NCBI RefSeq assembly: GCF_910592395.1
Contig: NC_088309.1
Span: 11,782,599 to 11,846,598, forward strand
DNA length: 64,000 bases
DNA from: Lineus longissimus
Lineage: Eukaryota > Nemertea > Pilidiophora > Heteronemertea > Lineidae
Direction: 5' to 3'
Part shown: positions 2,357 through 63,906 of the stretch, one piece after another
How the letters are laid out: each line of letters begins with the position of its first letter
How positions within the stretch are numbered: the first letter of the stretch is position 1
Made by a program: the position numbers and the translations under genes
Notes under the pieces: model-generated
The model's input: the letters and a program-made list of their open reading frames with translations, nothing else
Database searches by the model: none
Told to the model about the DNA's origin: nothing

Positions 2357-2544
2357 GTTAAAATGGTGGTAACGTTTTTATGATTGATTAACGCCGTACT
2401 GTACTGATGGAATGGAAAATGCCATAATGTTTACCGGTGTGAAGCCTTTCACGCTTTACGTACATTTGTATACGGCCGATGCACTGACCGTGTGTATCGT
2501 GCTGTGTTTGTAACGTATCACCAGTTTGCGTCTTCCTCTCGCTA
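2357..2544. repeat. 188-bp direct duplication flanking LINE copy 1 (left copy)
   Basis: It is nearly identical to 3355-3542: both begin GTTAAAATGGTGGTAACG and end CTTCCTCTCGCTA, with about two mismatches. The two copies exactly bracket the inverted LINE fragment, so they look like a very long target-site duplication. Confidence 0.9.
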
Positions 2545-3354: not shown

Positions 3355-3542
3355 GTTAAAATGGTGGTAACGTTTTTATGATTGATTTACGCCGTACTGT
3401 ACTGATAGAATGGAAAATGCCATAATGTTTACCGGTGTGAAGCCTTTCACGCTTTACGTACATTTGTATACGGCCGATGCACTGACCGTGTGTATCGTGC
3501 TGTGTTTGTAACGTATCACCAGTTTGCGTCTTCCTCTCGCTA
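3355..3542. repeat. 188-bp direct duplication flanking LINE copy 1 (right copy)
   Basis: Right copy of the 2357-2544 sequence. It lies immediately upstream of the LINE's truncated 5' end. Confidence 0.9.
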
Positions 3543-4001
3543 TGTATAGCTATCTGTGCATTTAATAGATGTTACATGGTTTTCTATAGTTTGAGAAGGG
3601 GTCTGAAAGGGGGGTGTATTAATATTTGAAGGTGCATTCTGGTATTTGCGGACCAGGTGCTTCGAAAATAGGCTCGCGTAGATCAGGGCCGGCCGCATAG
3701 AAACTCCGCTAGTGAACGGCCCGCTGGTCACTAGCGGGACCTTGTCGGCCGATACCGTGGCGGGGTAATTCTGGAGGCCGCATAGAAGCGTCGATAGGAC
3801 CCCGCTAGTGAAGTCTGCCGACAAGCTGTCGGAAGTTTGCGTATCGGGCTGCCGTCGTGGGCCCCACATGCATTTCACGCGTTATTTTTTCATTTCTCTT
3901 GTCTGCATTTTCGTAATAGGTCCGGTAATAGGTCGCGGATTTCAATTTCGCTATGTGCATGCGGTGTAGGCCTAGTGTTATTCACATGGTAAAGGCGAAA
4001 A

Positions 4002-10511: not shown

Positions 10512-11396
10512 TTATAGACCGTGTGAACGGATTTCTGGAATATACCATTACAGTGTATATGAAAAACCCAGTTGTATTTTGGGACCAAAAAGATGATTAT
10601 TGTTAAACCACGGTTTTAATCTGTGTATGTTGACTTCAGGTGACTGTTTGATAGTTATAGAGTTAGAAGCCAGTGGGTGTGATTCCATCACTGTCTCTCC
10701 GCTTACGCCAGAAGCCGTGTTCACGAGTTGGACGAGTCTGCCCTGCTGAGATCGCGAAGGCCGAGACCTTGCTGTTGACGTCCCTTCCCGTTTATAGAAT
10801 ACCCGTGGCGGTATAATATCTAATATCTTATTACGGAGTTTTCGGAGCTTTGTCTCACGGATCACGACTTTCCTGCGCACTTTGTTTTTCGTTAAAACTC
10901 AGATAAGTGGTACTTTATGCATGTTTTTAGTCATTTTCGGATCAAAATGATGGAAAGAAAATGAAAGTAAATTAACCCAAACCATGTCCGTTTTTGATTG
11001 GAAAATAAAGTTATTTATAACCCAAACCATGTCCACTTTGTCACTCTCCGGTGCCACCCGGCATCACTCCTCACAGTGAATCCGGCGTCTTCCATCGAAT
11101 ACTTCACTACAGCGATTTTACCTCTCCATAGATGAACCTTGCCTATAATTAAGTGCTGTACTGCGCACTAAAACAATAACAAGGTAAGTTAATAGCGTTT
11201 CATTCAGCATTCCTTGCAAAAGTAAAAGAATACTGTCCAAAAACAACCCAAACCATGTCTGTTGTTTCTTCAATTTGCAAGGGACGAATTCCGCAATGAC
11301 CGTGGAGCGATCGCAAAGACAATGGATGTGCCAATTGAGACACAGCAATTTGTGCACAATTGAACACATGATTATCAGAAACATTCCATAATAGAC
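10512..11396. other. Non-coding or relic DNA between Harbinger 2 and the Helitron duplication
   Basis: A 110-residue minus frame (10880-10548) contains VFYKREG, a string also found in the Copia integrase C-terminus at about 14960, and EVNIHRLKPW, reminiscent of the end of gypsy-type integrases. It may be a remnant of the integrase of the host insertion, at low confidence. The word AACCCAAACCATGTC occurs three times (about 10975, 11017, 11248). The 5' end of the Helitron may lie in here but I could not place it. Confidence 0.35.
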
Positions 11397-11700
11397 CGTG
11401 AGAGAAGCAATGTGCCCACAAATTTTGCATATTTAGTTCACTTCTGGTGATAAATAACTATATTTTGTGCTTGGAAAAAAGAAGACATGGGTTGGGTCAG
11501 TTTTCGAGGCAAGTCCCATGTGCTCTCGAAGTTTCTTTGTTTTCCCGATTAGACTTCAAATCTCGACTTCTTTTACCTAAAGTTTGCAATGGTAAGCTAA
11601 AAACTAAGCTCCAACAATACCCCATATCTATCTCTCTTTTACCTTTTACAAACATGACGAAGTCGGCTACATAAACAAATAAATCATCCCCATAAAACGG

Positions 11701-12051
11701 GATGATGAATTTGACCCAGGCCGGCTGGAGCACATCGCTCCCTCGGATGTGAACTTGCCCTTCATTCTTGAAAGAACTCAATTCCAACTCAGGGTCAGTT
11801 ACTGTATGACAATAAACAAAGCGCAAGGACAAACCTTTGACAAGCTCGGTATCTTCCTTCCGCAGTCAGTTTTCAGTCACGGACAACTATATGTTGCTTT
11901 TTCGAGGGCTAGACGTTTTCAGGACATTACTGTACAAATCAATACAACCACAAAACAAGGATTCCTAGCCGAAGACGCCGTCACACAGAATACACTTCGT
12001 GAGAGAAGCAATGTGCCCACAAATTTTGCATATTTAGTTCACTTCTGGTGA
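11701..12051 (+). pseudogene. Helitron helicase C-terminus, copy 1
   Basis: C-terminal part of the PIF1-like helicase of a Helitron. Visible blocks are RLEHIAPSDVNLPFILER, RVSYCMTINKAQGQTFDKLG and SHGQLYVAFSRARRF, corresponding to the last helicase motifs. The frame is open here but no upstream helicase motifs are joined to it. Because the copy ends at the duplication junction (11992), it runs into unrelated codons (TLRERSNVPTNFAY) and lacks its natural end. Confidence 0.82.
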
Positions 12052-12301
12052 TAAATAACTATATTTTGTGCTTGGAAAAAAGAAGACATGGGTTGGGTCA
12101 GTTTTCGAGGCAAGTCCCATGTGCTCTCGAAGTTTCTTTGTTTTCCCGATTAGACTTCAAATCTCGACTTCTTTTACCTAAAGTTTGCAATGGTAAGCTA
12201 AAAACTAAGCTCCAACAATACCCCATATCTATCTCTCTTTTACCTTTTACAAACATGACGAAGTCGGCTACATAAACAAATAAATCATCCCCATAAAACG
12301 G

Positions 12302-12616
12302 GATGATGAATTTGACCCAGGCCGGCTGGAGCACATCGCTCCCTCGGATGTGAACTTGCCCTTCATTCTTGAAAGAACTCAATTCCAACTCAGGGTCAGT
12401 TACTGTATGACAATAAACAAAGCGCAAGGACAAACCTTTGACAAGCTCGGTATCTTCCTTCCGCAGTCAGTTTTCAGTCACGGACAACTATATGTTGCTT
12501 TTTCGAGGGCTAGACGTTTTCAGGACATTACTGTACAAATCAATACAACCACAAAACAAGGATTCCTAGCCGAAGACGCCGTCACACAGAATATAGTTTA
12601 TCAACAAATACTGTGA
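12302..12616 (+). pseudogene. Helitron helicase C-terminus, copy 2
   Basis: Identical at protein level to copy 1 through VTQN, then ends NIVYQQIL-stop, the usual type of C-terminus for Helitron helicases. It is followed within about 110 bp by the 3' terminal hairpin and CTAG. Confidence 0.82.
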
Positions 12617-12723: not shown

Positions 12724-13292
12724 TTCTTAATTACTGGCTAGTTTATTGTTACGACCTGTCGGCTAGTTAGGACTAGTCTGTTGCCATCTGGGCAGAACCG
12801 GTAGAGTCGAAGTCAATCAAGTTATATAGTCCTAGCTAGCGGTCGGGTTGCGTCAGTCAGCCTGAGTCAATATTACAGACTTTTTGTGTTGTAGCACGTT
12901 GTAAGTTGTGTATGTGAGAAGCATTTTACTATATCTCCCTTAGCGGAAAAAACTTGTATCGATTATATTCCCCTTGGCGGAAAGAGAAATTGACAATCAT
13001 ATATAACCTACTACGCCCTTCTACTGACGTTCCGGGCTAGAAGACCGAAGTCTGCAATCGAACACGAGACGGAGGATAGCCTGCTGTAGATGCCGGAGAA
13101 GAGACACCGCAATCGTGTAAAAAACTAGTACGGAGCCGCCAGCTCTAGGCTGAAGCATTTCCAGCTGTAGTGTGAATTGTAGGTATCTTATGATAGCTTG
13201 TACCATATAAATATACAGTCCTCTTCAAAAGTAATTAACCTCTGGCATAGTTATCTTATCGTCATCTTGTCAATTCGTTGATCGCCAGAACA
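12724..13292. other. Right part of the composite insertion, no gene seen
   Basis: Non-coding sequence with CTAG-rich words (about 12720-12840) and two related TCCC(C)TTRGCGGAAA words near 12937 and 12970. It ends at the inverted terminus CGCCAGAACA. Confidence 0.5.
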
Positions 13293-13297
13293 CGCAA

Positions 13298-13894
13298 TAA
13301 AGATAGAACCGACATTTATTGCGGAGAATGAGGACGCATTTGTTGCGGCTGGATACAGAGTTGTTCCAGTTGACAAATCTCGCGGCTGGCGTGGTCGCAA
13401 TATTCGAAACAGAGGGCCAACACGTGACGCGGTGGTCGAGCGAAAGGTAAACCCCACGGGAAGAGACGGTCGACCGATCACTTGTCGAGCCTGTGGATCG
13501 TTTCGACATTTACTCGCCAACTGTCGTGATAGTTGGGAGAACCAAGGAAAAGGGTCGTTTAACAGTGGTGTGTTGGTAAACGAAGTATTGAATACTGCAG
13601 TGCTATTTACGGGTGATAAGGAGGCTGACATTATGCGTCTTGGCGTGGAATCTCGGTGTTGTGCCGTGTTGGATAGCGCGTGTACCAGCAGTGTGCGGGG
13701 TCGATTGGATGCGATCCTTCCTCGAGTGTTTGGACAGTGTTGAGAGAAAAAAAATGATTAAGAGGCCCGGATTGAAGACTTTCAAATTCGGTGGTGGCGA
13801 AGTGCTGAAATCAAAAGGAGCGTATGAAATCCCGGTTACACACTCGCTGGAAAAAAGGTGTCTATTGCAACGGACGTTGTGGAATCAGATATAA
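13298..13894 (+). pseudogene. gag-pro: Copia gag C-terminus (CCHC) and protease, frameshifted
   Basis: From 13298 the frame reads IKIEPTFIAENEDAF, the exact continuation of gag from 2073. An arginine/glycine-rich linker (SRGWRGRNIRNRG) and a zinc knuckle CRACGSFRHLLANC (CX2CX4HX4C, about 13483-13524) follow. The retroviral-type aspartic protease starts with VLDSACTSSVRG (DSA in place of the common DTG, normal for some Copia elements). Frameshifts near 13735 and 13855 send the remaining protease into two other frames (GLKTFKFGGGEVLKS, then IATDVVESDITLLLS). The protease would mature Gag and Pol; it cannot here. Confidence 0.85.
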
Positions 13895-15079
13895 CCCTTT
13901 TGTTGTCTGCAGTGACAATGAAAGCAGTCAAGGTCAAACTTAACCTTGAGGATGATAAAGCGGAGATCCTGGGGACTGTAGTGGCATTAGACTTGATGAG
14001 CGCTGGTCACTACTGCATTCCAATGGACAATGTGAGCGACCGTACAGTGGAAAGTGTATGCGCGGTGAAGTTGAGTGAATTGGGCGAGGCGGAAAGGGTT
14101 AAAGCCCTTTTAAAGCTGCATCGTCAATTTGCACATCCGCCTACTCAGAAGCTGGTTAGTTTACTCAAGGACGCAGGGGTATGGCAAGACGAGTTCCTGC
14201 AACAACTCGATGCAATACGGGAAAAATGTGACTTGTGCAAAGTGTATGCTCGAACGCCGTCGCGGCCCGTGGTCGCAATGCCTATGGCCCATGACTTCAA
14301 TGAGAAAGTATCTATGGACTTGAAAAAGTGGAAGCATCGTTGGATTCTCTATCTAGTTGACATGTTGTCCCGGATGACTATCGCGGTGTTCATTGATAGA
14401 AAGACATCGAATGAGGTCATAGACAAAATCATGTCGCACTGGGTAGGTGCCGGCTACGGTGTAATGCGAGGATTACTATCTGATAACGGTGGCGAATTCA
14501 GCGCCGACGAAATCCGCGAGGTTGCGAGTGTGTTGAACATCCAAGTGTGCACGACGTCGGCGGACAGTCCTTTTCAGAACGGTCTCTGCGAACGTATCCA
14601 TGGTGTGACTGACAATATATTACTCAAACTTACTGAACAGTACCCCGATACGCCTGCAGAAGTTCTCTTGAGCTTGGCGAATATGGCGCGCAATTCTCTT
14701 CAGATATGACACGGGTATAGTAGCTATCAGCTAGTTTTCGGCAAAAACCCAAACTTGCCGAATGTGATGTCAGAACAACTTCCTTCGTTGCAGGGTGCTA
14801 CAATTAGTGAGGTTCTTGCAAAGCACCTTAACGCTCTTCATGCTAGCAGACAGGCTTTCATCGAGTCTGAAGCCGAGGAAAGAATTCGCCGTGCTCTGCG
14901 AAACAAAATCCGTGCATCTGAGCAGGTGTATCGCAATGGCGATCGAGTGTTCTACAAAAGAGAAGGCCAGAAACGATGGCTATAGGACCGGGGAAGGTTG
15001 TATTCCAGGACGGCCGTGTAGTGTTTGTGCGACATGCACGGTGGTACTTTTGTTAGGGTGTCGCCGAATCGGTTATTGA
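13858..15079 (+). pseudogene. int: Copia integrase (nonsense and frameshift)
   Basis: The frame 13858-14709 begins with the end of the protease and continues with an HHCC-type zinc region (LHRQFAHP ... CDLCKVY). The DDE core follows: VSMDLKKWKHRWILYLVDMLSR (first D), GLLSDNGGEF (second D) and SPFQNGLCERIHG (E). A TGA at 14707-14709 takes the place of a Trp codon before HGYSSYQLVFGKNPN; the same frame continues to 14985 with RNGDRVFYKREGQKRW. Another frameshift near 14980 moves the C-terminal domain (GPGKVVFQDGRVVFVRH) to a different frame. This enzyme would insert the element's cDNA. Catalytic residues survive but the ORF is broken. Confidence 0.88.
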
Positions 15080-15339
15080 AAGCTTCAAGCGATCCAGGAT
15101 GCGATTCTGGTAGGGGGTTAATAGGAAGTTACATGGGTAATCAAGAGAGTCGGAGAGTGTTAGCAGAACACACGTCTGGTGAAACCGCATGTGCGAAATC
15201 TACACCGGTGGTTTCGGAGAACATTGACGTGGACAATACCATGCAGAACGCTCCAATGGGCGAGCCAAGTTTGCACGTGCATGGTGAATCTAATCTGAAA
15301 AAGGACTCGAGGATACAATATAAGATAAAAACCTGAGAA

Positions 15340-16024
15340 TGACTGGACAATGGCTACGGTAAAAAGTAGGGCTGGAAAGGTCACTGGACTATACAGTGTG
15401 TACACTTGGCACAAACTGGACAACATTGAGAATGTGAATGCGAGTCATCAGTGAGAGTAATTCTTGCTGTTGCTGCAAGTAACCAATGGGCTGTTAAAAC
15501 GACCGACATCAAATCTACGTTTCTTCAAGGCAATGCTTTGGATAGGGAAGTGTTTCTAAAGCCCCCAAAAGAAGCTCGTGCGGAAGGGAAAATTTGGCGG
15601 CTCAGGCACTGTCTGTACGGGTTGAACGATGCTGCTCGGCAATTTTATCATAGCGTCAGGGATACTCTTCTGGGGATCGGATGCCAGCAGTCAGTGCATG
15701 ACCCTGCTCTATTTACCCTGATGAAAGATGGGCGGCTACTAGGTGTTATAGGGAGTCACATTGATGACTTCATCCATGCTGGTTGCCTTGAATTTGACAC
15801 GTTGGTGATGGAAATATTGCGTGAGCGCTTCCTGGCGGGTCGTATTGAAGACACAGCATTTACATATGAGTTGACCAGCAAGGATAAAACAATGTACAGA
15901 AGTGTTGTAGGTCGCCTAAATTGGGTTGTTCAGGGCACTAGGCATGATCTTGCATTCGAGATGATTGATCTCAGCACAGAATTCAACAAGGCTAAGGTGG
16001 TTGACATATTGCAGTTAAATCAGG
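15340..16024 (+). pseudogene. rt: Copia reverse transcriptase (RVT_2), internally deleted
   Basis: The pre-RT linker RAGKVTGLYSVYTW is at about 15372. A jump follows: the N-terminal third of RVT_2 is missing and the frame resumes at about 15451 with RVILAVAASNQWAVKTTDIK. Conserved blocks are STFLQGNALDREVFLKPP, WRLRHCLYGLNDAARQFY and the active-site strand GSHIDDFIHAG (about 15750-15782). A second shortening lies near 15865 (AFTYELTSKDKTMYRSVVG). The frame ends past 16010. The family RT is much longer, so this copy cannot be active. Confidence 0.85.
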
Positions 16025-16036
16025 TGGGTGGTTAGA

Positions 16037-19991: not shown

Positions 19992-22394
19992 GTATATGGA
20001 CATGACACACGTAAGTATTGCTACGTGCAACTTACTGCAGTCGTATGGTTGGTTGTGATGGTGCGTACCATTGAGCCCCAAGTGACAACGCAAGCTCCGA
20101 AAGCAACATGCACAGTGAATTCACCAACGTCGTGTAACACTCTTTACTTCACCGATGTTCTCCCAATCCTTGAAAACTTAACGTCAACTTCAAGTTCAAA
20201 TACTATACGAATAACGTGTACATGCGCTCAATCCTGTGCTGCAGTACACTTGAATGATAGTACCTTCACAGAGAATTCAAAAATTCACCGACTTATTATA
20301 CGCAGTTGCAATATTGTGAGTTTGGCCCCGGAATCTTTAACACCTTTCCAAAACCTGATCTGGCTCGTGATATTCAGAGCTGGCTTGAATAACCTTCCAC
20401 AAGCAGCAATCCGAGGAATTGGAAAGCTTGAAAGTATTAGACTGTATGCAAGTCGCATACGATCTATCACCCCAGGCGCTTTTGTCGAACTAACTACCCT
20501 CAAGGAACTGATGATCAAAACGAACAACATTGCAGTGTTGTCAAATGGGACTTTTGAAGGACTCTGGAATCTAAAATACCTAATAATGTTCAATAATAAT
20601 ATCAGAACACTTAGCCAAGGAGTCTTCTTCCCCCTTGGTAATCTGGAGATTCTCGAGCTAGGTGGAAATAATCTACCATTGCTGAAGGACTATTCGTTTG
20701 ATGGTCTAGGTAACCTCAAACATCTTTTATTCGTTAGGAACAGACTTCAGGAGATAGAGAACGGGACACTTCATGGTCTTGGGATGTTATTAAGTTTAGA
20801 CCTTAACAACAATAAAATTACAGTGTTACCGCACGGTGTATTCACAGGCCTAAGAAGTCTTACTGACCTGTCGATGGAACAAAATTTAATATCGTATTTA
20901 ACGGATGGTTCGTTTTTAGGTCTCCAAAACCTCCAGTCGCTTCGACTAAGCAAAAATAACATCCAGGTGATAGAGAAAGGGGCATTTCGTGATCTCGGCA
21001 AGCTATTACGTTTATATCTCTCTGAAAATCAAATCACGGGTCTGGGGATAGGTCGCTTTGAGGAATTATCTAACTTAAAGTATCTCCATCTTGACTTAAA
21101 CAGCATCACGGCGCTAGAGGAAGGTGCATTTCGTGGATTGGTTGGACTAGACAACCTTGACATCTCATCCAACAAAATTGCAACTTTTTCGAGTGAAACA
21201 TTCACGGAACTAAACAATCTACACACATTGGACTTGTTTTCTAATTTGTTCAACTGCACATGTGCTTTGCAAGGGATTGCTTCATGGTTTAGCGCAAACC
21301 GACAAATGATTGCAGACGCCAGTAATATGACGTGTGACACACCGTCTAACATGCAGGGGATGGTTATCCTGGACATTGATTGGTCTCTCTTGGGATGCAG
21401 TACATGGACAAGTAGCTCTACAATTCCACCCACTGAGGCCACGAATCCACCAGATGACTCATCTCTCTTAGAATCCAGTACATGGACAAGTAGCTCAGCT
21501 TTTCCAACCAATGAGGCCTCGAATCCACCAGATGACTCATCTCTCTTAGAATCCAGAACATGGACAAGTAGCTCAGCTTTTCCAACCAATGAGGCCACGA
21601 ATCCACCAGATGACTCATCTCTCTTAGAATCCAGTACATGGACAAGAAGCTCAGCTTTTCCGACCAATGAGGCCACGAATCTACCAGATGATTCGACGCT
21701 CTTAGAATCCAGTACATGGACAAGTAGCTCAGCTTTTCCAACCAATGAGGCCACGAATTTACCAGATGATTCGACGCTCTTAGAATCCAATACTTGGACA
21801 AGTAGCTCAACAATTCCATCCAATGAGGCCACGAATCTACCAGATGATTCGTTGCTCTTAGAAAACAGTACACTGACACGTCGTTCAACAATTCCACCCA
21901 ATGAGGCCACGAATCTAAAAGATAATTCGTCGCTCTTAGAAGACAGTACATGGACAAGTAGCTCCACAATTCCACCAAACGAGGCTACGAATCTACCAGA
22001 TGATTCGTCGCTCTTAGAAAATAATACATGGACAAGTAGCTCAACAATTCCACCCAATGAGGCCACGAATCTACCAGATGATTCGTCGCTCTTAGAAAAC
22101 AGCACACTGACACGTAGTTCAGCACTTCCACCTAATGAGGACACTAATCTCCCAGATGATTCGTATTTCTCAGAATGCGGTACATGGACAAGAGGGACAA
22201 CAGCTCCAACTAATGAGGCCACGCATCTATCAGACGCAATCACGCAATATGTCCGCTCTGTTTGCATTGTTGTTACAATGCCATTGTCGTTACAATGGCA
22301 ATTGACATTGTTTTCGGGCTTTAGGCGCTCATCAAGAGACTGTACACTTTGGGTAATTGTATTGTTAGCGTCACTCGGATTGTGTCGTCTATAA
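19992..22394 (+). CDS. LRR protein with mucin-like stalk and hydrophobic tail (VLR-like architecture)
   Basis: An open frame of about 790 residues. No in-frame ATG begins it: upstream is a TAG at 19989, the frame meets GTG at 20025 and the first ATG at 20058. The start probably comes from an upstream exon, with a 3' splice site at 19991. Counting from 20025: a hydrophobic segment (residues 3-13, VVWLVVMV) acts as signal; a Cys-rich N-cap (about 29-71); thirteen 24-residue LRRs (about 88-400, pattern LxxLxLxxNxIxxLxxGxFxGLxxL); an LRR C-cap with CTC...C...C (about 405-455); eleven Ser/Thr/Pro-rich repeats of 26 residues (about 456-742); and a C-terminal hydrophobic run (LWVIVLLASLGL) at the very end with no cytoplasmic tail, suggesting a GPI anchor. 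Ligand unknown; recognition or adhesion at the cell surface is inferred. It is the only large host-type gene in the window. Confidence 0.85.
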   Translation, partial: VYGHDTRKYCYVQLTAVVWLVVMVRTIEPQVTTQAPKATCTVNSPTSCNTLYFTDVLPILENLTSTSSSNTIRITCTCAQSCAAVHLNDSTFTENSKIHRLIIRSCNIVSLAPESLTPFQNLIWLVIFRAGLNNLPQAAIRGIGKLESIRLYASRIRSITPGAFVELTTLKELMIKTNNIAVLSNGTFEGLWNLKYLIMFNNNIRTLSQGVFFPLGNLEILELGGNNLPLLKDYSFDGLGNLKHLLFVRNRLQEIENGTLHGLGMLLSLDLNNNKITVLPHGVFTGLRSLTDLSMEQNLISYLTDGSFLGLQNLQSLRLSKNNIQVIEKGAFRDLGKLLRLYLSENQITGLGIGRFEELSNLKYLHLDLNSITALEEGAFRGLVGLDNLDISSNKIATFSSETFTELNNLHTLDLFSNLFNCTCALQGIASWFSANRQMIADASNMTCDTPSNMQGMVILDIDWSLLGCSTWTSSSTIPPTEATNPPDDSSLLESSTWTSSSAFPTNEASNPPDDSSLLESRTWTSSSAFPTNEATNPPDDSSLLESSTWTRSSAFPTNEATNLPDDSTLLESSTWTSSSAFPTNEATNLPDDSTLLESNTWTSSSTIPSNEATNLPDDSLLLENSTLTRRSTIPPNEATNLKDNSSLLEDSTWTSSSTIPPNEATNLPDDSSLLENNTWTSSSTIPPNEATNLPDDSSLLENSTLTRSSALPPNEDTNLPDDSYFSECGTWTRGTTAPTNEATHLSDAITQYVRSVCIVVTMPLSLQWQLTLFSGFRRSSRDCTLWVIVLLASLGLCRL
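21393..22238 (+). repeat. 78-bp coding minisatellite (about 11 units)
   Basis: Units encode the 26-residue stalk repeat (STWTSSSxxPxNEATNxPDDSSLLES). Sequence varies between units mainly in the middle (AFPTN or TIPPN). Because 78 is a multiple of 3, the opposite strand is also open for 472 codons (22447-21029), and another minus frame for 186; these are shadows. Confidence 0.9.
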
Positions 22395-33779: not shown

Positions 33780-34852
33780 CACAGATGTAACCACATCCGT
33801 GGGGAGACGCACAACATCTGTAAATATTGTTTCGATTTCTGCCACCACAGTCTGTTGATTCATATTTGTTGATTCACAGTTGTCAAATGAGTTTCCTCAG
33901 GGACGATAGGTTATTTGCAACAGCAGACCACACCGTTTTTCCTCCAAAGGTATTCTAGGTAAAATTATCCAAATCAGCCTTTATCAGGTTATGTTTGCCG
34001 AACGTCATTACCTACTGGAAGATCCTGACATGAAAATGTTTCCTCGTGATGAAATGTGAACTTGACCTTTAATCAAATATCATATATATCCTTAGCTGCC
34101 ATAAGACAGAACCCCTTCATCCATCCACTGATAGATTAATAATATGTTCAATTTCTTTTGAGAACCAGATTTATTTTCGTGTCTGTCAAAGCCCTGGGAA
34201 ATTTAATAACTAACGTGGTCATGAATCTTTGAGACATCGCCGCTGTTGGCATATATTCCGCATATCAAAACCAAAATGGCTTTTAAAATGCAAATTATTT
34301 TGGTTCGATTTCATTCTGGAACATGATTCTCATACCTCATGAGTCATGTGTTGGAGTAAGATAAGAGCAGCAATGTTTGGAGAGAGTTGTTGGGTGACAG
34401 AGTGCTTGTATGGTAGAATGTTTAAGAAGTAGACCGTCAAATCCTCGCGCCTCATTATATATATATTGAGATTCGCGAATATTTCAAAATAAAACAATTG
34501 TGTCTGGATATATAAATACGAGTATTTATTTTGGCTGATTAAGAAATTTCGTTCGGTTTTTCATTAAAAATAATTTTCGAAACCTTTTTTTTTCGCAAAT
34601 CTCGATAATTCACGAAATCCGAAAGATATGTCCGCGAAAGTTTGGCAGTATACAGTATGTATATTTTCCATTCTATCACATGAAAATTGAGGGAAGCTGA
34701 GCGAGCTTGCTTCGGTGCAAACTGAAACTACTGTAGTGTTTTCAATACAATTCCATGTGGTGGCACATTCTAAAGCTATTACAGAACCCTATGCTTTGAA
34801 CCTACAATTGTGACAGCTGACTGCCAGTTTAACTCAACCTCCTCCTTCTTGA
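33780..34852. other. No gene seen
   Basis: AT-rich non-coding DNA with no recognised repeat or ORF. Confidence 0.6.
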
Positions 34853-35113
34853 TATACTGGATATACTCGCCAATAAGATCCCAAGCCCGACAATACCCGA
34901 TTTCTACTACCGCCTCGATGGGTAGAGCCTAAACAACCGGGCGTAATAGTAGTCATGACTATTCATGACGATTACGTTGTTAACATTTGAATAGATATCC
35001 CACCCCTTTTATGGCTGCGAAAGGCCTACTATTGTTCGGCTGACCCATCGAGGCGGTGATACAAATCGGGAATTGTCGGGCTTGGGAACTTTTTGATGAG
35101 TGGATCCAGTATG
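34853..35113. mobile_element. MITE of about 260 bp
   Basis: Inverted arms of about 75 bp: left ATACTGGATATACTCGCC with CCCAAGCCCGACAAT and ACCGCCTCGATGGGT; the right arm in reverse complement has ATACTGGATCCACTCATC with the same two internal blocks. No coding capacity. Nothing gene-like follows up to 36397. Confidence 0.85.
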
Positions 35114-36397
35114 TAAACGTTTAAAATTGATAAGGACGTCACATTTGAGGAATAGTATACATGTACATATATATTGTAGATTTTTATCTCAGCAAAAATT
35201 GGCAATGTCTCTGTGAAATTTTATTGTCTGAATATTTATCAATCGTTCTCAAGATGAGAAACACTTATACCGACAGTGAGGTATCTATTTCTATTTTAAA
35301 TCATCTCATATTTAAATATGATTTGATTTTGAAATACTTCGACTTCTTCTGTACTTTGCACTAACAAAGCGGTTTTGGTTGTCAACCATAACTGCTGAAT
35401 ACAAAACGAGGCTTCGTCGGCGCATAGGGCATTAATGGAATGGGCGGCTTTTTATTGCAGTATGTTTGTTCTTCCTCTGGTTCATCAGTAAAAACTTTCT
35501 AAACATATTTGATGCTTTTCCAATTTTGTTTCACCTCTTAGATAGTAGAACAACGCGTTATTCGTTATTTCTAGTACGCACAAGTCCTGGCGCGAAAGGC
35601 TTTTCTGGCCACGGGAGTAACGCCGATATCTGAGTTCACGTCACCCGCTATTAAGACGCAACGACATTTCCATATATCGTCGCAGTTGCGGGGTCATCAA
35701 GCGCCATCAGCGTGCCGTCTGAAAAATCGATATCAACACCAAGATGTCACAGGGTAGATCCATGGCTCCAGTAAACGCCTTACAAGTGCATTGTTCCACA
35801 TGGAAAGGGTAGACGCATGGAGATCTAACTCGGGTCGAATCGGAGTCAACATCGAAAAAGCGTGATAATTCAGTCCGGTTTAGAATTGTTCCTGTTTTTG
35901 TGTAATTTGTTGATGGAAACTACTCATGAAGAATAGGAGGTGACTGGGCAGCCGGCAGTTGGGTTATATTTCCCTTAATAGTACCAATGGTCCTTTATTA
36001 ACGAGCAGCGTGCGTAAGGAGAAAGGAGACTTGTCGTCGGTGACAAGCGCTGCCGGGGCGGCCAACTGATGATTGCTTGTTCTCGCTTTCGAATGCATTG
36101 TGCAGTCTAACACTCTTCAGGACGCAGGTGGCTGTGAATCTGACAAGAAGATTGTTCATTAGTGTCAATGGCAATCACAGTGTTCTGACTCTCTTAGATG
36201 AAGATCCTATTTGCAGCTTCATTAACATTAACATGCTCAAATTTGAATGTCATCGCAAAAATATGCAACCAAGACTTACTTCTTCTGGAAAATAGCAAGT
36301 TACTTTATCTCTTGCCTCTTATGACTTTGAAAGACGTCATGTCAGAATATCTTATTCCAAACAGGATTGTGCACTATCCCTTCGTTTTTCTATCGAC

Positions 36398-45160: not shown

Positions 45161-46837
45161 ATGGAATCACCATCAATCAAATCGGAAGGGGGAGATGAAA
45201 GGAGGGCCCTGAGGGTACTTAGGGACCTTCGTTTGTTATCCCCAACTATAAAAAACAAAATTATGACTACATTAATGCAAGAAGACACTCCGTCATTCCT
45301 ACAAGACCTTACGTTAGAAGATGCCGAAGAAGGTTCCATTTATGGTACACCAAGGGGCGATTCCATGGAAGGTTGTGGGGTGTTTGACCGTGATGGTTCC
45401 GGTGGGTCAAGGAGAAGGGTTTCATTTGCTGATGGCCCCTCGGAATCTCATGGTCCAGTGGGCTCGGGTCGTCCTTCACATGGTCTCCCCCATCGTAAAC
45501 TTTTCATAAAGCCCTCTCCAACATCGCTATTGCCTCAGGACAGAGTTAGTTCACAACCTGTTCCATCAACGCTTCATCATTCTTCTTCGTCACAACATAT
45601 CCTTCGTAATCCTTTGTCTTGGTCGCAGCCTGTTGGTCATCAAAATGTTCTATCTCGACCTCCCTTGACTACTAGTCACAACCAGTATTCTTCACCACGG
45701 TCTTTGTCACAACCAGCGTCCTCACAGCCTGTCGTTTCTTGCTCCGAGGAGCATGCATTTGCGTCACAACCTGTGTCTTCTCTGCCTGACATATCATACT
45801 CGATGGTACATCCAGGGCATCCTGCCTCACAGCCACGGTCTTTGTCACAACCTGGCATTTCTTCGCATAGGCGGCCTTCTTATCTTCCTCAGCAGTGGTC
45901 AACTCCTGTCTTTCCTGTGTCTTCAGGGCAGACTTCAACTCTGCCCATGTCGCAACCTTGGTCGGGTTACCAGGCACAACCAGTCAATTCCCCAGGCTTG
46001 TCTTTATCTCAGCCTTGGTACAATTCTCAGCCGATTCAAGTTTCTACATATGGTAAGCCGCGTATTGCTACATTCTCCGGCTCAAAGGATGTTAAGAATT
46101 CTGTGTCTTTCAATCAGTGGCGATATGAGGTGAAATGCTTGCAAAAGGCTGAGCAGCCACGCGTTGTGCTGCAGGCCATTCGTCAATCGTTGAAGTATCC
46201 TGCATCGGATGTTCTCTTGCACATGGGTGAAGATGTCACTGTCGAGGAAATCCTCCATAAATTTGATATCATGTTTGGTAATGTCCTGCCAGCGGAGAAG
46301 CTGTTGGAGAAATTTTATGTTGCAGCCCAAGGGGTTGGCGAATCAGTCGCCTCTTGGGGTTGTCGTCTTGAGGATATATTGAATCTGCTAGGAGATGCCG
46401 TCCCTGTCACCAGCCCAGAGATGCTGCGTAGTTAATTCTGGTCTGGATTGAGGGATGAGAGGGTTCGGCTTGGTCTCCGCCATCTTTATGATTCTTTTGT
46501 GCCATATCACCCCTTGTTGTTGCAGGCTCGGGTTTTGGAGCAGGAGTTCGCTGCTCTAGCTCTACCAGCGTCTTTGTCAGCTACTAGTTCTTCTCAAGTA
46601 CATGTTAGTCAGGTCACTGTCGGTTCTGGTCCTGAGTCTGATGTCGTCAAGTCTCTCACTGACCAAGTTCAGCGATTGCAGGGCAAGTTGACTGCCATTG
46701 AGACACATAAACAGAAACGACAGCAAAATGTTGTTTGTTTCAACTGTGGCGAAAAGGGTCATTTCAGTCGAAGGTGCCCTAAGTCTAATAGGAAGGATTT
46801 AAAAGACAATGCTCCAGTGTCGGGGGACAGACACTGA
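45161..46837 (+). pseudogene. gag: Gypsy gag with one in-frame TAA
   Basis: ATG at 45161 (MESPSIKSEGGDERR) starts a Gag of 558 codons interrupted once by TAA at 46433-46435, with the frame continuing unchanged (FWSGLRDERVRLGL). Order: N-terminal helices (ALRVLRDLRLLSPTIKNK), a long Ser/Gln/Pro-rich region (about residues 85-285), a capsid-like domain (FNQWRYEVKCLQKAEQP, then LEKFYVAAQGVGESVASW), and a zinc knuckle CFNCGEKGHFSRRC (CX2CX4HX4C) at 46737-46778. The capsid part resembles the Gag fold shared with PNMA proteins. The terminal TGA is at 46835, just 31 nt after the slippery site used to reach pol. The TAA may be a single point mutation. Confidence 0.87.
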
Positions 46838-46857
46838 GTAGCGAGCCTATTAGTCCC
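46798..46857 (+). promoter_or_regulatory. -1 ribosomal frameshift signal (TTTAAAA plus pseudoknot)
   Basis: The heptamer T TTA AAA at 46798-46804 lies in the gag frame in the exact X XXY YYZ arrangement. Ten nt later a 7-bp stem forms between 46815-46821 (CAGTGTC) and 46830-46836 (GACACTG). Its loop holds GGGAC (46824-46828), which can pair with GTCCC at 46853-46857 to make an H-type pseudoknot. Slipping back one base enters the pol frame, which is open from 46804 to 48594. Confidence 0.82.
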
Positions 46858-49800
46858 AAGGAGCACCTTAGTCGCTGTCATGCTCGTTCTGATCCTAATC
46901 GTACTCGGAGGAGGTCCCCACCTCCAGAACCTCCTAAGGTCCGACCTGTTGTGAGCTCCAAGTGTTTAGCACCCTCTTCTTTGCCTAAGGGGTTAGTTGG
47001 CAAGTCGAACGAGTCGTTCATCAAATTGGAGGGCGAGATTTTGTCATGTCTATTGGATACTGGCTCGATGGTAAGTACCATCTCTGAGCATTGTTACCAA
47101 CAGCACCTCGCCTCACTTTTGCCTATTCTTCCTATTTCTGATCTTCTGTACATTTCAAGCGCCAATGGTAGCCCATTGCCGTACTTGGGTTATGTTGAAG
47201 CGTCCGTAACCTGTCCATTCTCGGATGATGAGCTCTTGGTTCCTATACTTGTGGTTCCCAATACCAAGTATAATCTCAGGGTGCCTGTCTTAGTGGGAAC
47301 CAATATTTTATCCCGCTTTCAACCTGTAGGTACTGTGCCAAAGCAATGGAAACTAGCTTTCTCATCTTTGGTGTCACAGGCTGAACCAATTATAGGCCAA
47401 GTTCAGACAACAAAGCCGATTGTTATTGGTCCAGATTCGAGGGTAACTGTACATGGTATTTGTCATGGTACTTCAACTTGCAAAGTTACATCGGCTATTG
47501 CCGAAGGTATTCCTGGTATTTCATTGCCCGGCGATGTTATAGTTGTTCCAAGTCTGGTCAAAATGCATGGGCAACGGAAGGAGAGGGTTGCAGTTTGTGT
47601 ATATAACCCTGGGAGGAAATCTGTTACTCTCCCTAGTCGTTCTGTGTTTTGTAGGCTGTCTCAAGGCAATACAGTTTGCCACAAAGAGGATCTGTTGTCT
47701 GATTGTACTATGGCTCCTGAATCTTCCACCTTATATTCCATGAATCTGATGTCGGATCGTTTGGGTCCAGGTTCAGCTTGCGACTCTGCTCATAGAAGGA
47801 AAGTGCTCGAGGAAATTGACTTGTCTCATTTGGGGAGCAGTGACGTCTCCAAGCTTGAAGGTCTGTTTGGTCGTTATGACGACATATTTTCTCTATCCAA
47901 TCTGGAAATTGGCAAAACTAGTCTAGTCAAACACCGGATTGAGTTGAACGATCCCATTCCCTTCAAACAGCGTCATCGGCGGATTCATCCCGCCATGTTT
48001 GAAGAAGTTAGACAACACTTAGAGGAAATGTTGCAGGCTCGGGTTATCCGTCATTCGAAAAGCCCTTGGGCCTCCAACATGGTTCTGGTTCGGAAAAAGG
48101 ATGGAAGTTTGCGTTTATGTTGTGACATGCGTCAGCTAAATAAGCGGACTATCCGAGATTCTTATGCCATGCCTCGGATAGATGAAACTCTTGACAGCCT
48201 TGCTGGGGCCAAATACTTCTCGTCGTTAGACTTACGGTCAGGATATTGGCAGGTTGAGTTGGAGGAGGAACATAAATGTCGCACAGCTTTTACTGCTGGG
48301 AATCTTGGTTTCTTTGTCGAGTGGAATTTAATGCCTTTTGGCCTCACGAATGCTCCCAGTACTTTTCAAAGGTTAATGGAGCGCTGTTTACAGGATTTGC
48401 ACTTAAAAGAGTGTCTTGTGTATCTAGATGATATCATTATTTTCTCGGCAACGGTGGAGGAACACCTTCAAAGGTTGGAAAATGTGTTTCAGAAGCTGCA
48501 AGACTGTGGTTTGAAGTTAAAACCCAGTAAATGTATATTATTGAAGGAGAAAAATAAAGTATCTAGGTCACTTGGTTTCAGCGAAGGGCGTTGAGGCTGA
48601 TCCTGATAAAGTCAAAATCATTCGATCATGGCCCACCCCTCAGAATACTGAAGATGTTCGTAAATTTTTAGGGTTTGCAGGCTATTACCGAAAGTTTGTA
48701 AGAAACTTTTCGACGTTAGCCCGTCCTTTAAATGAGTTGTTACCGGCTACTACGCCCAAGAAGGGCAGACCAAAAGTTGCCAACACTTCTTCCTGGACAT
48801 GGGGAGAAAAGCAAGAGTCTGCTTTTGTCTCACTAGTAAAGGAGTTGTCCAGTCCTCCTGTATTATGCTTTGCTGATTTTTCGCTTCCATTTGAACTCCA
48901 CATTGATGCAAGCACTTCAGGTCTCGGAGCTATTTTGTATCAAAATCAGAATAACCAACGTCGGGTTGTTGCTTATGCAAGTCGGAGTTTGAACAAAGTG
49001 GAGCGTAATTATCCAGCTCACAAGTTAGAATTTCTCGCATTGAAGTGGGCTGTGACGGAGAAGTTCTTTGATTATTAGTATGGCAACTATTTTCATGTCA
49101 AGACTGACAATAACCCTCTAACCTATGTTCTTACGTCTGCTAAACTAGATGCCACAGGGCATCGTTGGTTGGCTGACCTCTCTGCCTTTCATTTTGACAT
49201 ATCTTATGTGCCAGGTGCTTCTAATGTGGATGCAGATGCCTTGTCACGGTTCCCTTGGTCCACAGTTGGAATTGAGAGTGTTCAGGCCATTTGCCAGGCG
49301 GCACAGGGTGGAGATGGTTTGGTTGAATCATTATGTATGTCTGTGTCGAATGATTTGTCATCGGCCGAGGTTTTGCTTGTTGATTCCCCTTGGCCTAAGG
49401 TTGATATCAGGGCAGGACAGCAGGCTGATCCTGTTATTTCTGAGCTTTATCATTGGGTCAAATTCCAGCAGCGTCCGAGTCGGGATTTATTGAAGGACAA
49501 GGACAAGGAACTTTTAATATTATGCTCATATTGGGACAGCTTGATTTTACTGGACGGTTTACTCTGTAAAAGGTTAACGTTCAATGGTCAATGCTTTCAA
49601 CAGATCTTGGTCCCATCCTGTCTCCGTCCCCAAGTGATTGAGGGGTTCCACAATCACTTAGGCCATCTTGGACGAGATAGGACACTCGATTTTATTAAAC
49701 GTCGGTTTTTTTGGCCGGGAATGTCAGTTCAAGTTGACAAGTGGGTTCGGAATTGCCTTCCATGTATTAAGAGGAAGCAACCGCAGCTTCAGGAGCGTGC

Positions 49801-51097
49801 TCCACTTGTCAGCATTTGCACTACTCAGCCCATGCAGTTGGTATGCATGGACTTTTTATCTCTGGAACCGTCTCATGGTTATGAAAACATTCTAGTCATC
49901 ACTGACCATTTTTCTAAATATGCTCAGGCTATACCTACCAAAAGTCAGACCGCGGCTACAACAGCGCGTGTTCTCTTCGACAATTATATCGTCCATTATG
50001 GTATCCCTGAGCGTCTTCATAGTGATCAGGGTCAGAATTTTGTTAGGAAGGTCATTTCAGAGCTGTGCAAGCTCATGAATATTTCCAAGTCGCGCACAAC
50101 ACCTTATCACCCTATGGGGAATGGAGTTTGTGAACGTTTTAACCGCACTTTATTAAATATGCTTGGCACACTCCCCACGGATAAGAAGAATGATTGGAAA
50201 CGCTTTGTTCCTAGTCTTGTTCATGCGTACAACTCTTCTTGTCATGATTCTTCAGGGTTTTCACCTTACTTTCTCCTGTTTGGCAGGGAACCTCGTCTTC
50301 CCATTGATGTTCATTTTAGTACTTTGCTCCCGTCTGCTCAGCCACGTTCAAAGGTCGCCTTTGTTGACGATTTACGTTCACGTCTTGCCATTGCATATGA
50401 CCTAGCTCAGAAGCAATTGGAAGCTTCCAGAATCAAGCAGAAGGAGCATTATGATCTTAGGGTACGTGGTGCTACACTTAATATCGGCGACAAGGTGTTG
50501 GTTCGCCGTGTTGGGGACCGTGGCAAACACAAGCTTGCCAACAAGTGGGAAGATGAGTTTTATACTGTGTCTTGTCAGTCTAATCCAGATATTCCGGTGT
50601 TTGTGGTAGAGGCCGAGTCCGGTTCCCGCAAATGTCTACACCGAAATATGCTGCTCCCGATTTCGTGTCAGTCCGACCATCCTTTATGTCAGCCTAGCGG
50701 TGACTCTCAGTTGGCCCGGCCTATTCCTAGGCCAAGACGGTCTTTGAAAAAGTTGGAGTGGGTAACTGAGGGAGAATCCGCTAGTTTGAAGGATGTTCCT
50801 GACACAGCGACGATTCCGTCAACTTTGGTTTCCGATGGGCCATCTCTGGATTCTGACGCGCTGTCGAACTCAGATTCAGAGAGTGCGCGATCGGAGACTC
50901 TTCGTCGGTCAAGTCGACGACGTCGGCCACCGGACTGGCTGCGTCCGGATGGACAGAATGTTTTTTCACAGCATGTTGGTCCTGTTCCGGAATGGCGCCA
51001 GAAGGTGTTATTGATCACTGAGCTTCTTGGGGATAGCAGGTTCCAGAGTCATCCCTCTGCTTTGGAGGCTGCTATCCGGATGATGTCTCCAGTGTAA
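46804..51097 (+). pseudogene. pol: Gypsy pol: protease, RT, RNase H, integrase (frameshift, one TAG)
   Basis: Read by -1 frameshift from gag. Protease: LLDTGSMVSTISE (about 47047) and VLVGTNILSRF. RT: KDGSLRLCCDMRQLNKRT, YFSSLDLRSGYWQVE, MPFGLTNAPSTFQ, and the catalytic VYLDDIIIFS (about 48418). An extra base near 48555 shifts the frame from NKVS to YLGHLVSAKGVE. The connection domain and RNase H follow (FELHIDASTSGLGAIL), broken by TAG at 49076-49078 in FFDY-stop-YGNYF; the same frame goes on to TDNNPLTYVL. Integrase: HHCC zinc motif (HNHLGHLG ... CLPCIKRK), D in MDFLSLE, D in HSDQGQNF, E in GVCERFNRTL. The C-terminal tail is Ser/Arg-rich and ends at TAA 51095. All catalytic residues survive, so the damage is recent. 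Confidence 0.9.
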
Positions 51098-51179
51098 TAC
51101 TGTCAATATTGTTGAATGCTACTGTGCTTACTGGCAATACATTTGTGTGATTTTGTATTGTATATCATGGTTGAGGGAA

Positions 51180-51395
51180 TATATATATGTATATATATAT
51201 ATACGCATACCTATTATATATATTATATATTATACCTAATATATTATATATAATATGTATAATATATATTATATATATTTGTATATATCATATATATTAT
51301 ATATCATATATTATATGTATTACATATAATATATATATATTATATAATATATATTATATATAATATATAATATAATATATATAATATATTATATA
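51180..51395. repeat. AT-rich dinucleotide tract (about 215 bp)
   Basis: Almost pure TATA/ATAT with occasional C or G. It starts where the Gypsy 3' LTR should begin. Confidence 0.9.
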
Positions 51396-51532
51396 CTACC
51401 CCTCTACCCCTACCCCCACCCCCAACCTTAACCATACTACCCCTCCCCAACTCCTAACCCTAACCATACTACCCTACCCCTAAACTTAGAGCCACCATAA
51501 TACAACCCCTAACCCTAACCTAGTGCCCTCAT
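51396..51532. repeat. CCCTAA-like degenerate tract
   Basis: C-rich strand repeats such as CTAACCCTAACC and CTACCCCT, resembling telomere-type sequence, with ACCATACTACCC words interspersed. Confidence 0.75.
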
Positions 51533-51545
51533 GATACTACCTCTA

Positions 51546-52113
51546 AAGGAATGATGTTGGTGAGGGTTAGCAATACCATTAAAGGAAGGGTGTTGGTTAG
51601 GGTTAGCAATAGCATTAAAGGAAGGGTGTTGGTTAGGGTTAGCAATAGCATCAAAGAAAGGGTGTTGGTTAGGGTTAGCAATAGCATCAAAGGAAGGGTG
51701 TTGGTTAGGGTTAGCAATAGCATCAAAGGAAGGATGTTGGTAAGGGTTAGCAATAGCATTAAAGGAAGGGTGTTGGTGAGGGTTAGCAATAGCATTTAAG
51801 GAACGGTGTAGGGTTAGGCTTAGCAATACCATTAAAGGAAGGGTGTTGGTTAGGGTTAGCAATAGCATTAAAGGAAGGGTGTTGGTTAGGGTTAGCAATA
51901 GCATTAAAGGAAGGGTGTTGGTTAGGGTTAGCAATAGCATCAAAGGAAGGGTGTTGGTTAGGGTTAGCAATAGCATCAAAGGAAGGGTGTTGGTTAGGGT
52001 TAGCAATAGCATCAAAGGAAGGGTGTTGGTTAGGCTTAGCAATACCATTAAAGGAAGGGTAATGATGAGACTGAGCAATACCAAAAGGAAGGGTGTTGGT
52101 TAGGGTTAGCTAT
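51546..52113. repeat. 36-bp minisatellite containing TTAGGGTTAG (about 16 units)
   Basis: The unit is AAAGGAAGGGTGTTGGTTAG plus GGTTAGCAATAGCATT. Each unit includes GGTTAGGGTTAG, a telomere-like core. Since 36 is divisible by 3, several frames are open on both strands (12-residue repeats such as VLVRVSNSIKGR); these are not genes. Confidence 0.93.
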
Positions 52114-52448
52114 AAATTTGTCTGGATATCGAGGCAGAGATTTCGGATATTTATTAGATTTTTCTTGAGGTTGCCACAGAACCATCCGGCGCATATGTTC
52201 ACATTGATGGCGCCATTGAAAAAGCCCTCAAGATGGACGGTGGACAAGCCTTCTTCAGGCGAGACTTCGGGTAAAAAGGAAAGAGGAAAACCTCTTAACT
52301 GATATAAGATGTCGTTCTGTTGTCTGTTTCAGCATTTTACACACATCAGCTATAATTGGTATGATATTTACTTATTACATGTATACCAGTAGAAGCCACT
52401 ATTTATGATGGCTGCACATTATGTAGCGTATCACTGTCACATGTTGCA
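52114..52448. other. No gene recognised
   Basis: A 69-codon plus frame (52093-52302) including NHPAHMFTLMAPLKKPSRW has no known match. The rest is AT-rich. Confidence 0.4.
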
Positions 52449-61935: not shown

Positions 61936-62131
61936 ATGACAACCCTTTTTTACTACTTGCTAAAATAAATGGCATGTATTAAAATTGGCCCATCTGCTGC
62001 ACCCTAGAAAAACGCCAAGGGAAAGCACTTTCGATTAGTCTACCTCATAGTGCAGACTACACATGGCAGTTTCAGAGTAAATTGATCATGCTCAAAAGAA
62101 ATCAGCCGAACTAAAAATCCTTTTAAGTGTC
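61936..62131. repeat. 196-bp direct duplication flanking LINE copy 2 (left)
   Basis: From ATGACAACCCTTTTTTACTA to CCTTTTAAGTGTC; repeated at 63712-63906 with a handful of differences. It abuts the 5'-truncated LINE. Confidence 0.92.
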
Positions 62132-63494
62132 ATGGAAAATGATATGTACTCACCGTGGTTCAGCATCAAACATGGCGTTCGTCAGGGTGGAGTGCTCTCC
62201 ACGTGGCTCTATCTGCTGTATATGGACAATCTCCTCTATACCTTAGAGAACACAAATTTTGTCGCAAAACTAGGAGACAAAGAATGTGGTTCCGCCCTGT
62301 CATGCTGACGACCTAACCCTCGTCTCACTTGCCAAATATGGTCTTGATCACATGATGTCATGCAGTTTCAAATATTCAATCAAGTGGAGGTACGACTATA
62401 ACTCAGACCAGTGCATTGTTGTGGTGTTTGGTGAGACACAGCATCAATGGCAAAGCATTTCTCATGAACGAACGTGGACGCTTGGAGACAAACCGGTTAA
62501 GGAAGCCGATTCGCACATACACCTTGTTGTAATACAGAACAAATACAGTCGAACAACGACAACAGCAGTTTCCGCCGCTCAAAAGCTAAAGAAAACTCTC
62601 ATGTGCATACTAGGTCCGGGGATGCAACCCAACAAATTTAATCCGATCTCCAGTTACCATATCTACTGTAGAATATGCCTTCCGAAGGCACTTTACGGCA
62701 GCGAACTATGGTCCAATATGTCTGAACGTGACTTAATGATCTTAGAGCGTGCTCACAGATTTTGTCTCAAACGAATGCAAGGATTTAGCAAAATCACTCG
62801 AACTGTAACAACACAAGCCATGATAGGAAGTATAAGCCTAAAAGCACTCATCGATAAACAATGTCTTCTATTCTTTGGACAGTAAGCAAGAATGCCTGAG
62901 CACCTACTCCCCAGGCGTGTTTTTAATTTTCGGTTCCGCTCAATGTTGAGTAGTTCCGAAACTTGTCTCGGGTATGTGCCAAACTTAATGATAGTAATGG
63001 ACAGGTACAACCTTTCAAACTCCCTAAAAGAGTTCACTGAAAGCGGTCAACTAAGTGTGCCAACTGGTATCCCCTGGAAGTCTTTAGTTCAAAAATCTGT
63101 TCTCAATCAAGAAAACTTAAACTTCAGAGCAGAATGTACACGCAATAATCTTTTCAGAATAAAGAACATTGAAAAGTCTCTGGACTATCCGTCCTTAATA
63201 TGGACATGCGCTCAAACTGATCGGAAGCACAAAAGCAACTATGCCTTCCTAGCTAAGCTAAACACACTACCAGAAACTATCACAGAAACAAAGTGTAATC
63301 GATGTACTCAATGTTGTACCGATCCGCAACTTCATTTTTTCTGTGGATGTTCAGGTTTTTCCTCCCAACGTGAGAAAAGTTGGGAACAAATTGAAAATGA
63401 ATGCCCAGTTGAAATCAGCACAGCACTGTGGAACATGTGCGACGATGAACTCACAGAAACATTGCTCGGGAAACAACTTTCCGCTTTTGATTAG
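62132..63494 (+). pseudogene. LINE RT (C-terminal part) and C-terminal domain
   Basis: The opening frame reads SIKHGVRQGGVLSTWLYLLY (RT motif with RQGG). A frameshift near 62280 moves to CHADDLTLVSLAKYG, where HADD stands for the catalytic YADD. The frame 62286-62885 holds LPKALYGSELWSN and ERAHRFCLKRMQGF, typical of the RT thumb and following domain. A stop at 62883 (GQ-stop) precedes the frame 62892-63494, with LGYVPNLMIVMDRYN, NIEKSLDYPSLIWTCA and a Cys/His cluster CNRCTQCCTDPQLHFFCGC, ending LLGKQLSAFD. Copy 1 conserves the same blocks. The protein would reverse-transcribe at the target; this copy is 5'-truncated and broken. Confidence 0.87.
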
Positions 63495-63711
63495 GAAGAA
63501 AATGTAGCACTTCTCCGGATCAGAGCACATGCTTGAATGTTTAGGCTAATTATCTAAAATGTTTTCCTTGCCAAAGACTACGTATTTTTGACAACAGCTA
63601 GGAGTATGTAAATAGTGTACATGCCACGCACCTTCTCTTCTCACTATTAGTTGTTATATGTTGCTTTGATTTTTTTGTAATCTTCTATATAGGAGGAATA
63701 AACAGATATAT
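62132..63711 (+). mobile_element. LINE copy 2: 5'-truncated non-LTR retrotransposon
   Basis: Starts inside the RT domain (GVRQGGVLS block at about 62171) and runs through the C-terminal domain to a 3' end GTAATCTTCTATATAGGAGG, then AATAAACAG and an ATATAT tail. Same family as 2545-3354. Target duplications of 195-196 bp flank it with no gap. Confidence 0.88.
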
Positions 63712-63906
63712 ATGACAACCCTATTTTTCTACTTGCTAAAATAAATGGCCTGTATTAAAATTGGCCCATCTGCTGAACCCTAGAAAAGGCCAAGGGAAAG
63801 CACTTTCGATTAGTCTACCTCATAGTGCAGACTACACATGGCAGTTTCAGAGTAAATTGATCATGCTCAAAAGAAATCAGCCGAACTAAAAATCCTTTTA
63901 AGTGTC
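63712..63906. repeat. 195-bp direct duplication flanking LINE copy 2 (right)
   Basis: Right copy of 61936-62131. It follows directly on the LINE's AT tail. The remaining 94 bp of the window show nothing recognisable. Confidence 0.92.

Follow-up and report, generated by a model that had tools for sequence, protein, structure and literature searches.

Two LINE copies and their flanking repeats

The window, by which we mean the whole stretch of 64,000 nucleotides analysed here from Lineus longissimus, contains two 5'-truncated LINE copies, each enclosed by a pair of direct repeats. Copy 2, with its repeats, occupies positions 61936-63906 and is laid out as follows (TSD, target-site duplication):

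61936..62131, no strand: probable TSD copy on the 5' side of the LINE, 196 bp (repeat search and genome search)
62132..63711, + strand: 5'-truncated LINE (copy 2), 94.8% identity to the full-length copy L035, element positions 3537-5114
63712..63906, no strand: probable TSD copy on the 3' side of the LINE, 195 bp (repeat search of the window)

In a self-BLAST of the window, the 196- and 195-bp stretches align as direct repeats with 96.9% identity (E 1.1e-88), and the LINE fills exactly the gap between them, just as a preliminary description of this DNA had reported for a LINE with adjoining duplications of 195-196 bp. Searches with related proteins (tblastn) find LINE homology from 62129 on, at the inner boundary of the left repeat, and the 3' end of the LINE adjoins the right repeat directly. 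Copy 2 represents the 3'-terminal 1,580 bp of an element of 5.1 kb: the end of the reverse transcriptase domain, the C-terminal Cys-rich part, the 3' UTR and an ATATAT tail, with the reading frame broken by a frameshift and one in-frame stop. The genome searched comprises 391 Mb in 30 contigs; within it, the only matches to the repeat are the two stretches themselves, and the left flank together with the repeat (596 bp) matches its own locus alone. This anatomy, together with a target that matches nothing else in the genome, makes it very probable that the copy 2 repeats are a TSD.

Copy 1, with its repeats, lies at 2357-3542, in the opposite orientation:

2357..2544, no strand: TSD copy on the 3' side of the LINE, 188 bp, present singly in the unoccupied paralogous site L064
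2545..3354, - strand: copy 1, a 5'-truncated LINE of a related family with an (AT)n tail (alignment, tblastn and its own genome copies)
3355..3542, no strand: TSD copy on the 5' side of the LINE, 188 bp (repeat search and comparison with L064)

BLAST aligns the repeats as 2354-2544 and 3352-3542 at 98.4% identity; their length is 188 bp when an edge mismatch is excluded and 191 bp when it is bridged. The target of copy 1 (the repeat together with part of the left flank) belongs to a sequence present at least 40 times in the genome, its own copy included, the others being 92-96% identical among the matches listed. This target repeat spans 2074-2356 and continues from 3543 onward, and several of its copies are paired about 8.3 kb apart in an LTR-like manner. 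In one unoccupied copy, L064, a single 188-bp stretch joins the two copy 1 flanks, and on the basis of this one paralog we take the copy 1 repeats to be a true TSD. Where the preliminary description had proposed a search for empty target sites, the paralog holds one 188-bp stretch, the opposite of an empty site in which both repeats already exist. A 5-bp gap in the comparison with L064 falls exactly at one junction (small gaps occur elsewhere), so that the length of this TSD is known to within a few bases. The two repeats differ from each other at two internal positions, at both of which the 5'-side copy matches L064.

The element and its copies in the genome

An alignment of the two LINEs, covering the C-terminal coding part and the 3' end, has 480 identities among 658 aligned positions and a further 160 gap positions, and the 3' end common to both has the form TGTAATCTTCTA..AGGAGGAA(A)TAAA..(AT)n. 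On the strength of this alignment, we assign them to one clade and to different families; each also has a separate set of close genome copies, with at least 42 matches for copy 2 and at least 40 for copy 1 (window copy included in each case). The two had previously been treated as one family, which does not hold. The accompanying statement that they sit in different targets and on opposite strands is correct: a comparison of the two targets finds no likeness, with alignment scores within the range of shuffled sequences, and copy 2 is on the + strand, copy 1 on the - strand.

The full-length copy L035 (5,114 bp) contains two open frames, the first 475 and the second 1,177 codons long. Its intact ORF2 matches RVT_1 (PF00078, E 5e-26), identifying a LINE-type reverse transcriptase, as well as PF03372 (E 5e-9) and PF14529 (E 2e-6), identifying an apurinic-type endonuclease; a search for RNase H in ORF2 returned no match at E up to 0.1. 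By sequence, the nearest solved relatives are L1 ORF2p and R2. Other relatives come from metagenomic and other contigs and are mostly without names; the named ones include proteins from bivalves, sea urchin and mantis shrimp (23-36% identity), and none of the homologs listed bears the name of a clade. No relatives were found in the phage collection or in the viral and prokaryote contig collections searched.

The copies related to copy 2 have a constant 3' end, variable 5' truncation and no LTR, with 23 distinct start positions in 24 insertions; L044 and L045, whose flanks differ, are both truncated at element position 4758. Their targets are altered in the manner of target-primed reverse transcription (TPRT), with a TSD in 8 of the 24, and comparisons with one paralog each cover one TSD (that of copy 1) and two deletions. 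Taken together, these sequence features identify copy 2 as an insertion of an APE-type non-LTR retrotransposon, an ordinary animal LINE type.

The 24 insertions were obtained from 42 match rows, of which 16 were dropped and 26 kept. The rows dropped were L009, L010, L021 and C13:9263554, without a 3' end; L011 and L012, which form the duplicated pair L040/L041; L023 and L024, which share the flanks of L022; L028-L030 and three further matches at 70-73%, assigned to another family; and two matches of a single broken copy on C7 (L048). Among the rows kept, L016 and L018 represent a single insertion (L042), and C17:6050735 is part of L033. The locus with L022, L023 and L024 (G000:C17:1405928-1415988) is tandemly duplicated, with three LINE copies in common flanks at a spacing of 4-5 kb.

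Two further repeats were considered as TSDs and rejected. The 379-386 bp repeat of L040/L041 adjoins the LINE 3' end, but its partner is not at the 5' end and the similarity runs past the repeat at 80-91%; the pair was left out of the count. A 39-bp repeat (87%) in L042 is not adjacent to the 5' end, and this insertion was entered as having no TSD.

Target alterations across sister insertions

A TSD above the null was found in 8 of the 24 independent insertions of the copy-2 family, the window copy included:

L001 (window copy 2): 196 bp
L036: 148 bp
L025: 128 bp
L017: 118 bp
L044: 78 bp
L013: 43 bp
L035: 26 bp
L014: 11 bp (borderline)

The null is the best score among 80 mismatched flank pairs, which was 20 with flank windows shorter than those of the real pairs; the weakest accepted TSD, the one of 11 bp, scores 22 and the next 52. 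Lengths may be up to about 3 bp too long, since the AT-rich tail can extend a match. The remaining 16 of the 24 have no TSD above this null, where TSDs shorter than about 10 bp are indistinguishable from chance and a short-TSD class may be hidden. A BLAST comparison of about 0.9-1.5 kb of downstream flank with the upstream DNA of all 24 insertions found no longer adjacent repeat. Inversion of the 5' end was considered as a cause of missing TSDs and rejected, no inverted LINE sequence being found in the DNA examined upstream of the truncated copies. In the copy-1 family, BLAST with 600-bp flanks detected a TSD in 0 of 12 short truncated copies, which were drawn from the at least 40 matches (8 at 94-100% identity to copy 1 and 4 at 76-85%) and judged without a separate null.

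For two of the 16 copies without a TSD, one unoccupied relative each suggests what happened to the target. The target repeat of L015 also occurs in L021, and in this comparison 23 bp are missing between the flanks (up to about 33 with the tail assigned to the LINE). L045 can be compared with an unoccupied relative in the window itself, at 34849-35117, an inverted-repeat element with 75-bp arms: relative to it, the site with the LINE lacks 50 bp (46-50) and has 4 extra bases at the junction. These two insertions look like target deletions of about 23-33 and 46-50 bp, in which the second break would lie upstream of the first nick if the two relatives reflect the original targets. The outcomes in the copy-2 family thus range from about -50 bp (deletion) to +196 bp, with eight insertions shown and two more indicated. 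Since they cover this range, the second break in this family appears to have no fixed distance and not to be set by the nucleosome repeat.

Insertion mechanism and comparison with known elements

We consider it very likely that copy 2 is a 5'-truncated APE-type LINE inserted by TPRT with a widely scattered second-strand break. The endonuclease of the element would nick the bottom strand opposite a TAT or AT in the top strand; the freed 3' end would anneal to the (AU)n tail that the LINE RNA carries and prime cDNA synthesis. Of the eight duplicated stretches in the copy-2 family, six begin with TAT and two with ATG or ATA, and the LINE tails of this family end in (AT)n; both fit priming on an AU-rich tail by a strand whose nicked end is ATA or AT. 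The top strand would then break about 196 bp downstream. After an early stop of cDNA synthesis, the cDNA end would be joined at the break, in sister copies often through 3-4 nt of microhomology, which fits the overlap of 3-4 nt between TSD end and LINE start in five of eight. Fill-in of the long single-stranded stretch would produce the duplication.

The scatter could instead come from the host, if a genome-wide repair state such as weak nucleotide excision repair (NER) scattered or lengthened the TSDs of all LINEs and the element itself were ordinary. There is a precedent in PMC5223499, where the median L1 TSD is 1,495 bp in NER-deficient human cells and 14 bp in complemented ones. Against this, a long TSD is absent from most copies here, and we regard a host-wide cause as unlikely. 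Matches to other LINE types are present in L036, L047 and L050.

The preliminary description had proposed a second-strand cut beyond a nucleosome, which would make a TSD near 190 bp a trait of this LINE clade. The part of this interpretation that calls the two copies TPRT insertions with long TSDs is supported; the nucleosome-set length is not, and we now find it distinctly improbable. What speaks for it is that both window copies have similar lengths (188 and 195-196 bp), that 0 of 9 TSDs exceed 196 bp and that a uniform distribution up to 196 bp describes the lengths better than an exponential one (log-likelihood -47.5 vs -50.8), a bound that was itself taken from the data. However, seven of the eight copy-2-family TSDs are 11 to 148 bp long, with sister lengths of 148, 128, 118, 78, 43, 26 and 11 bp and two apparent deletions besides, and 0 of the 7 outside the window fall between 180 and 200 bp. 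Instead of a narrow length near 190 bp, the insertions span 11 to 196 bp, and the nine lengths, a small sample with copy 1 included, fit a uniform distribution from 0 to 200 (KS p = 0.94). An exponential distribution of the same mean has its maximum at or below 196 with probability 0.23, and the lack of a detectable TSD in the 12 truncated copies of the copy-1 family also counts against a clade trait. Because the sister TSDs vary and none lies within 180-200 bp, the two window lengths are read as the upper end of a wide spread, and their closeness is most likely a coincidence. From the nine lengths, there may be a ceiling near 200 bp. The searches of the literature, with most subscription papers outside their reach, turned up no report of nucleosome-length TSDs in LINEs.

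That the LINEs inserted between older tandem or segmental duplications, or between LTR-like terminal repeats, has next to no likelihood: the repeats differ between insertions, the single stretch in L064 refutes it for copy 1 and the copy 2 stretch is without another match in the genome. The window does hold local duplications unrelated to LINEs, and of 19 repeat-pair rows (60-400 bp, >90% identical and 0.2-7 kb apart, in the window and the LINE loci, 294,581 bases in all), 13 do not abut both LINE ends; 6 adjoin a LINE of this clade at both ends, in loci chosen for holding the LINE.

TPRT with a scattered second break is best compared with human L1, which the element resembles in its APE endonuclease and reverse transcriptase, 5' truncation, TPRT and occasional long TSDs. 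In PMC5223499, L1 TSDs exceed 100 bp in at most 10% of the events recovered in HeLa cells, in 3 of 9 events in complemented XPD cells and in most events in NER-deficient cells. Here, 4 of 24 insertions fall in this class; leaving out the window copy gives 3 of 23, and adding the 12 copy-1-family copies to these gives 3 of 35. Therefore, long TSDs are not exceptional in themselves, and the unusual part is that no peak is visible. L1 TSDs are described as 'several to several hundred nucleotides' long (PMC1291365), with a peak at 14-16 bp (PMC2912911). L1 differs in having such a peak, whereas the small sample here shows none, and in its poly(A) tail, where this element has (AT)n.

LINEs of the L2, CR1 and RTE types have microsatellite-like 3' tails, as does this element. 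Those of vertebrates also share its 5' truncation and 5'-junction microhomology (PMC4245944 and PMC2666801). According to the former, TSDs peak at 3-5 bp in L2, similarly in CR1 and at 10-12 bp in RTE; such clade peaks are a difference from the present family, in which a 3-5 bp class is below detection. The same paper weighs random-cleavage against element-specific models of the second cut (PMC4245944). For ZfL2-2 in wild-type DT40 cells, PMC2666801 gives one long TSD in 25 inserts. TSDs longer than 20 bp occur in 7 of 24 insertions here, against the one long TSD in 25 for ZfL2-2 (Fisher p = 0.023, with hosts and methods that differ and the window copy included).

R9 elements are site-specific for rDNA and have a single TSD length, reportedly 126 bp. 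A title found in reference lists describes the TSD of these bdelloid rotifer elements as exceptionally long. The long TSD is the likeness, whereas the elements here use unrelated sites and have scattered lengths.

It is conceivable, and we suggest it tentatively, that the element of this clade does not dictate the second cut and that outcomes are spread broadly, the extremes being a target deletion of about 50 bp and a duplication of about 196 bp; an upper limit close to one nucleosome repeat may exist, and the pattern would differ from the peaks reported for L1, L2, CR1 and RTE. This touches the question of whether the second-strand cut of LINEs is placed by the element or at random. The copy-2 family lends itself to testing this, since it combines an intact member with young truncated ones and its target alterations extend from about -50 to +196 bp. 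The similar lengths of two insertions in one window can mislead. In annotation, flanking repeats of about 200 bp can be a TSD and not a terminal repeat or a segmental duplication.

Several other features of the window can be recorded. The direct repeat pairs 1165-1276/16595-16702 and 43999-44394/59063-59450 look like LTRs of nested LTR retrotransposons, and polyprotein-like frames at 13282-16035 and 46792-51097 accompany them. A tandem duplication of about 600 bp at 11387-12593 (99.3% identity) is either recent or possibly an assembly artefact. At 51179-52114, an AT-rich array is followed by 32-36 bp tandem repeats with telomere-like units. Finally, an 800-codon open frame at 19992-22394, which we take to have a leucine-rich-repeat look, contains an in-frame tandem repeat of 78 bp within the 3' half.
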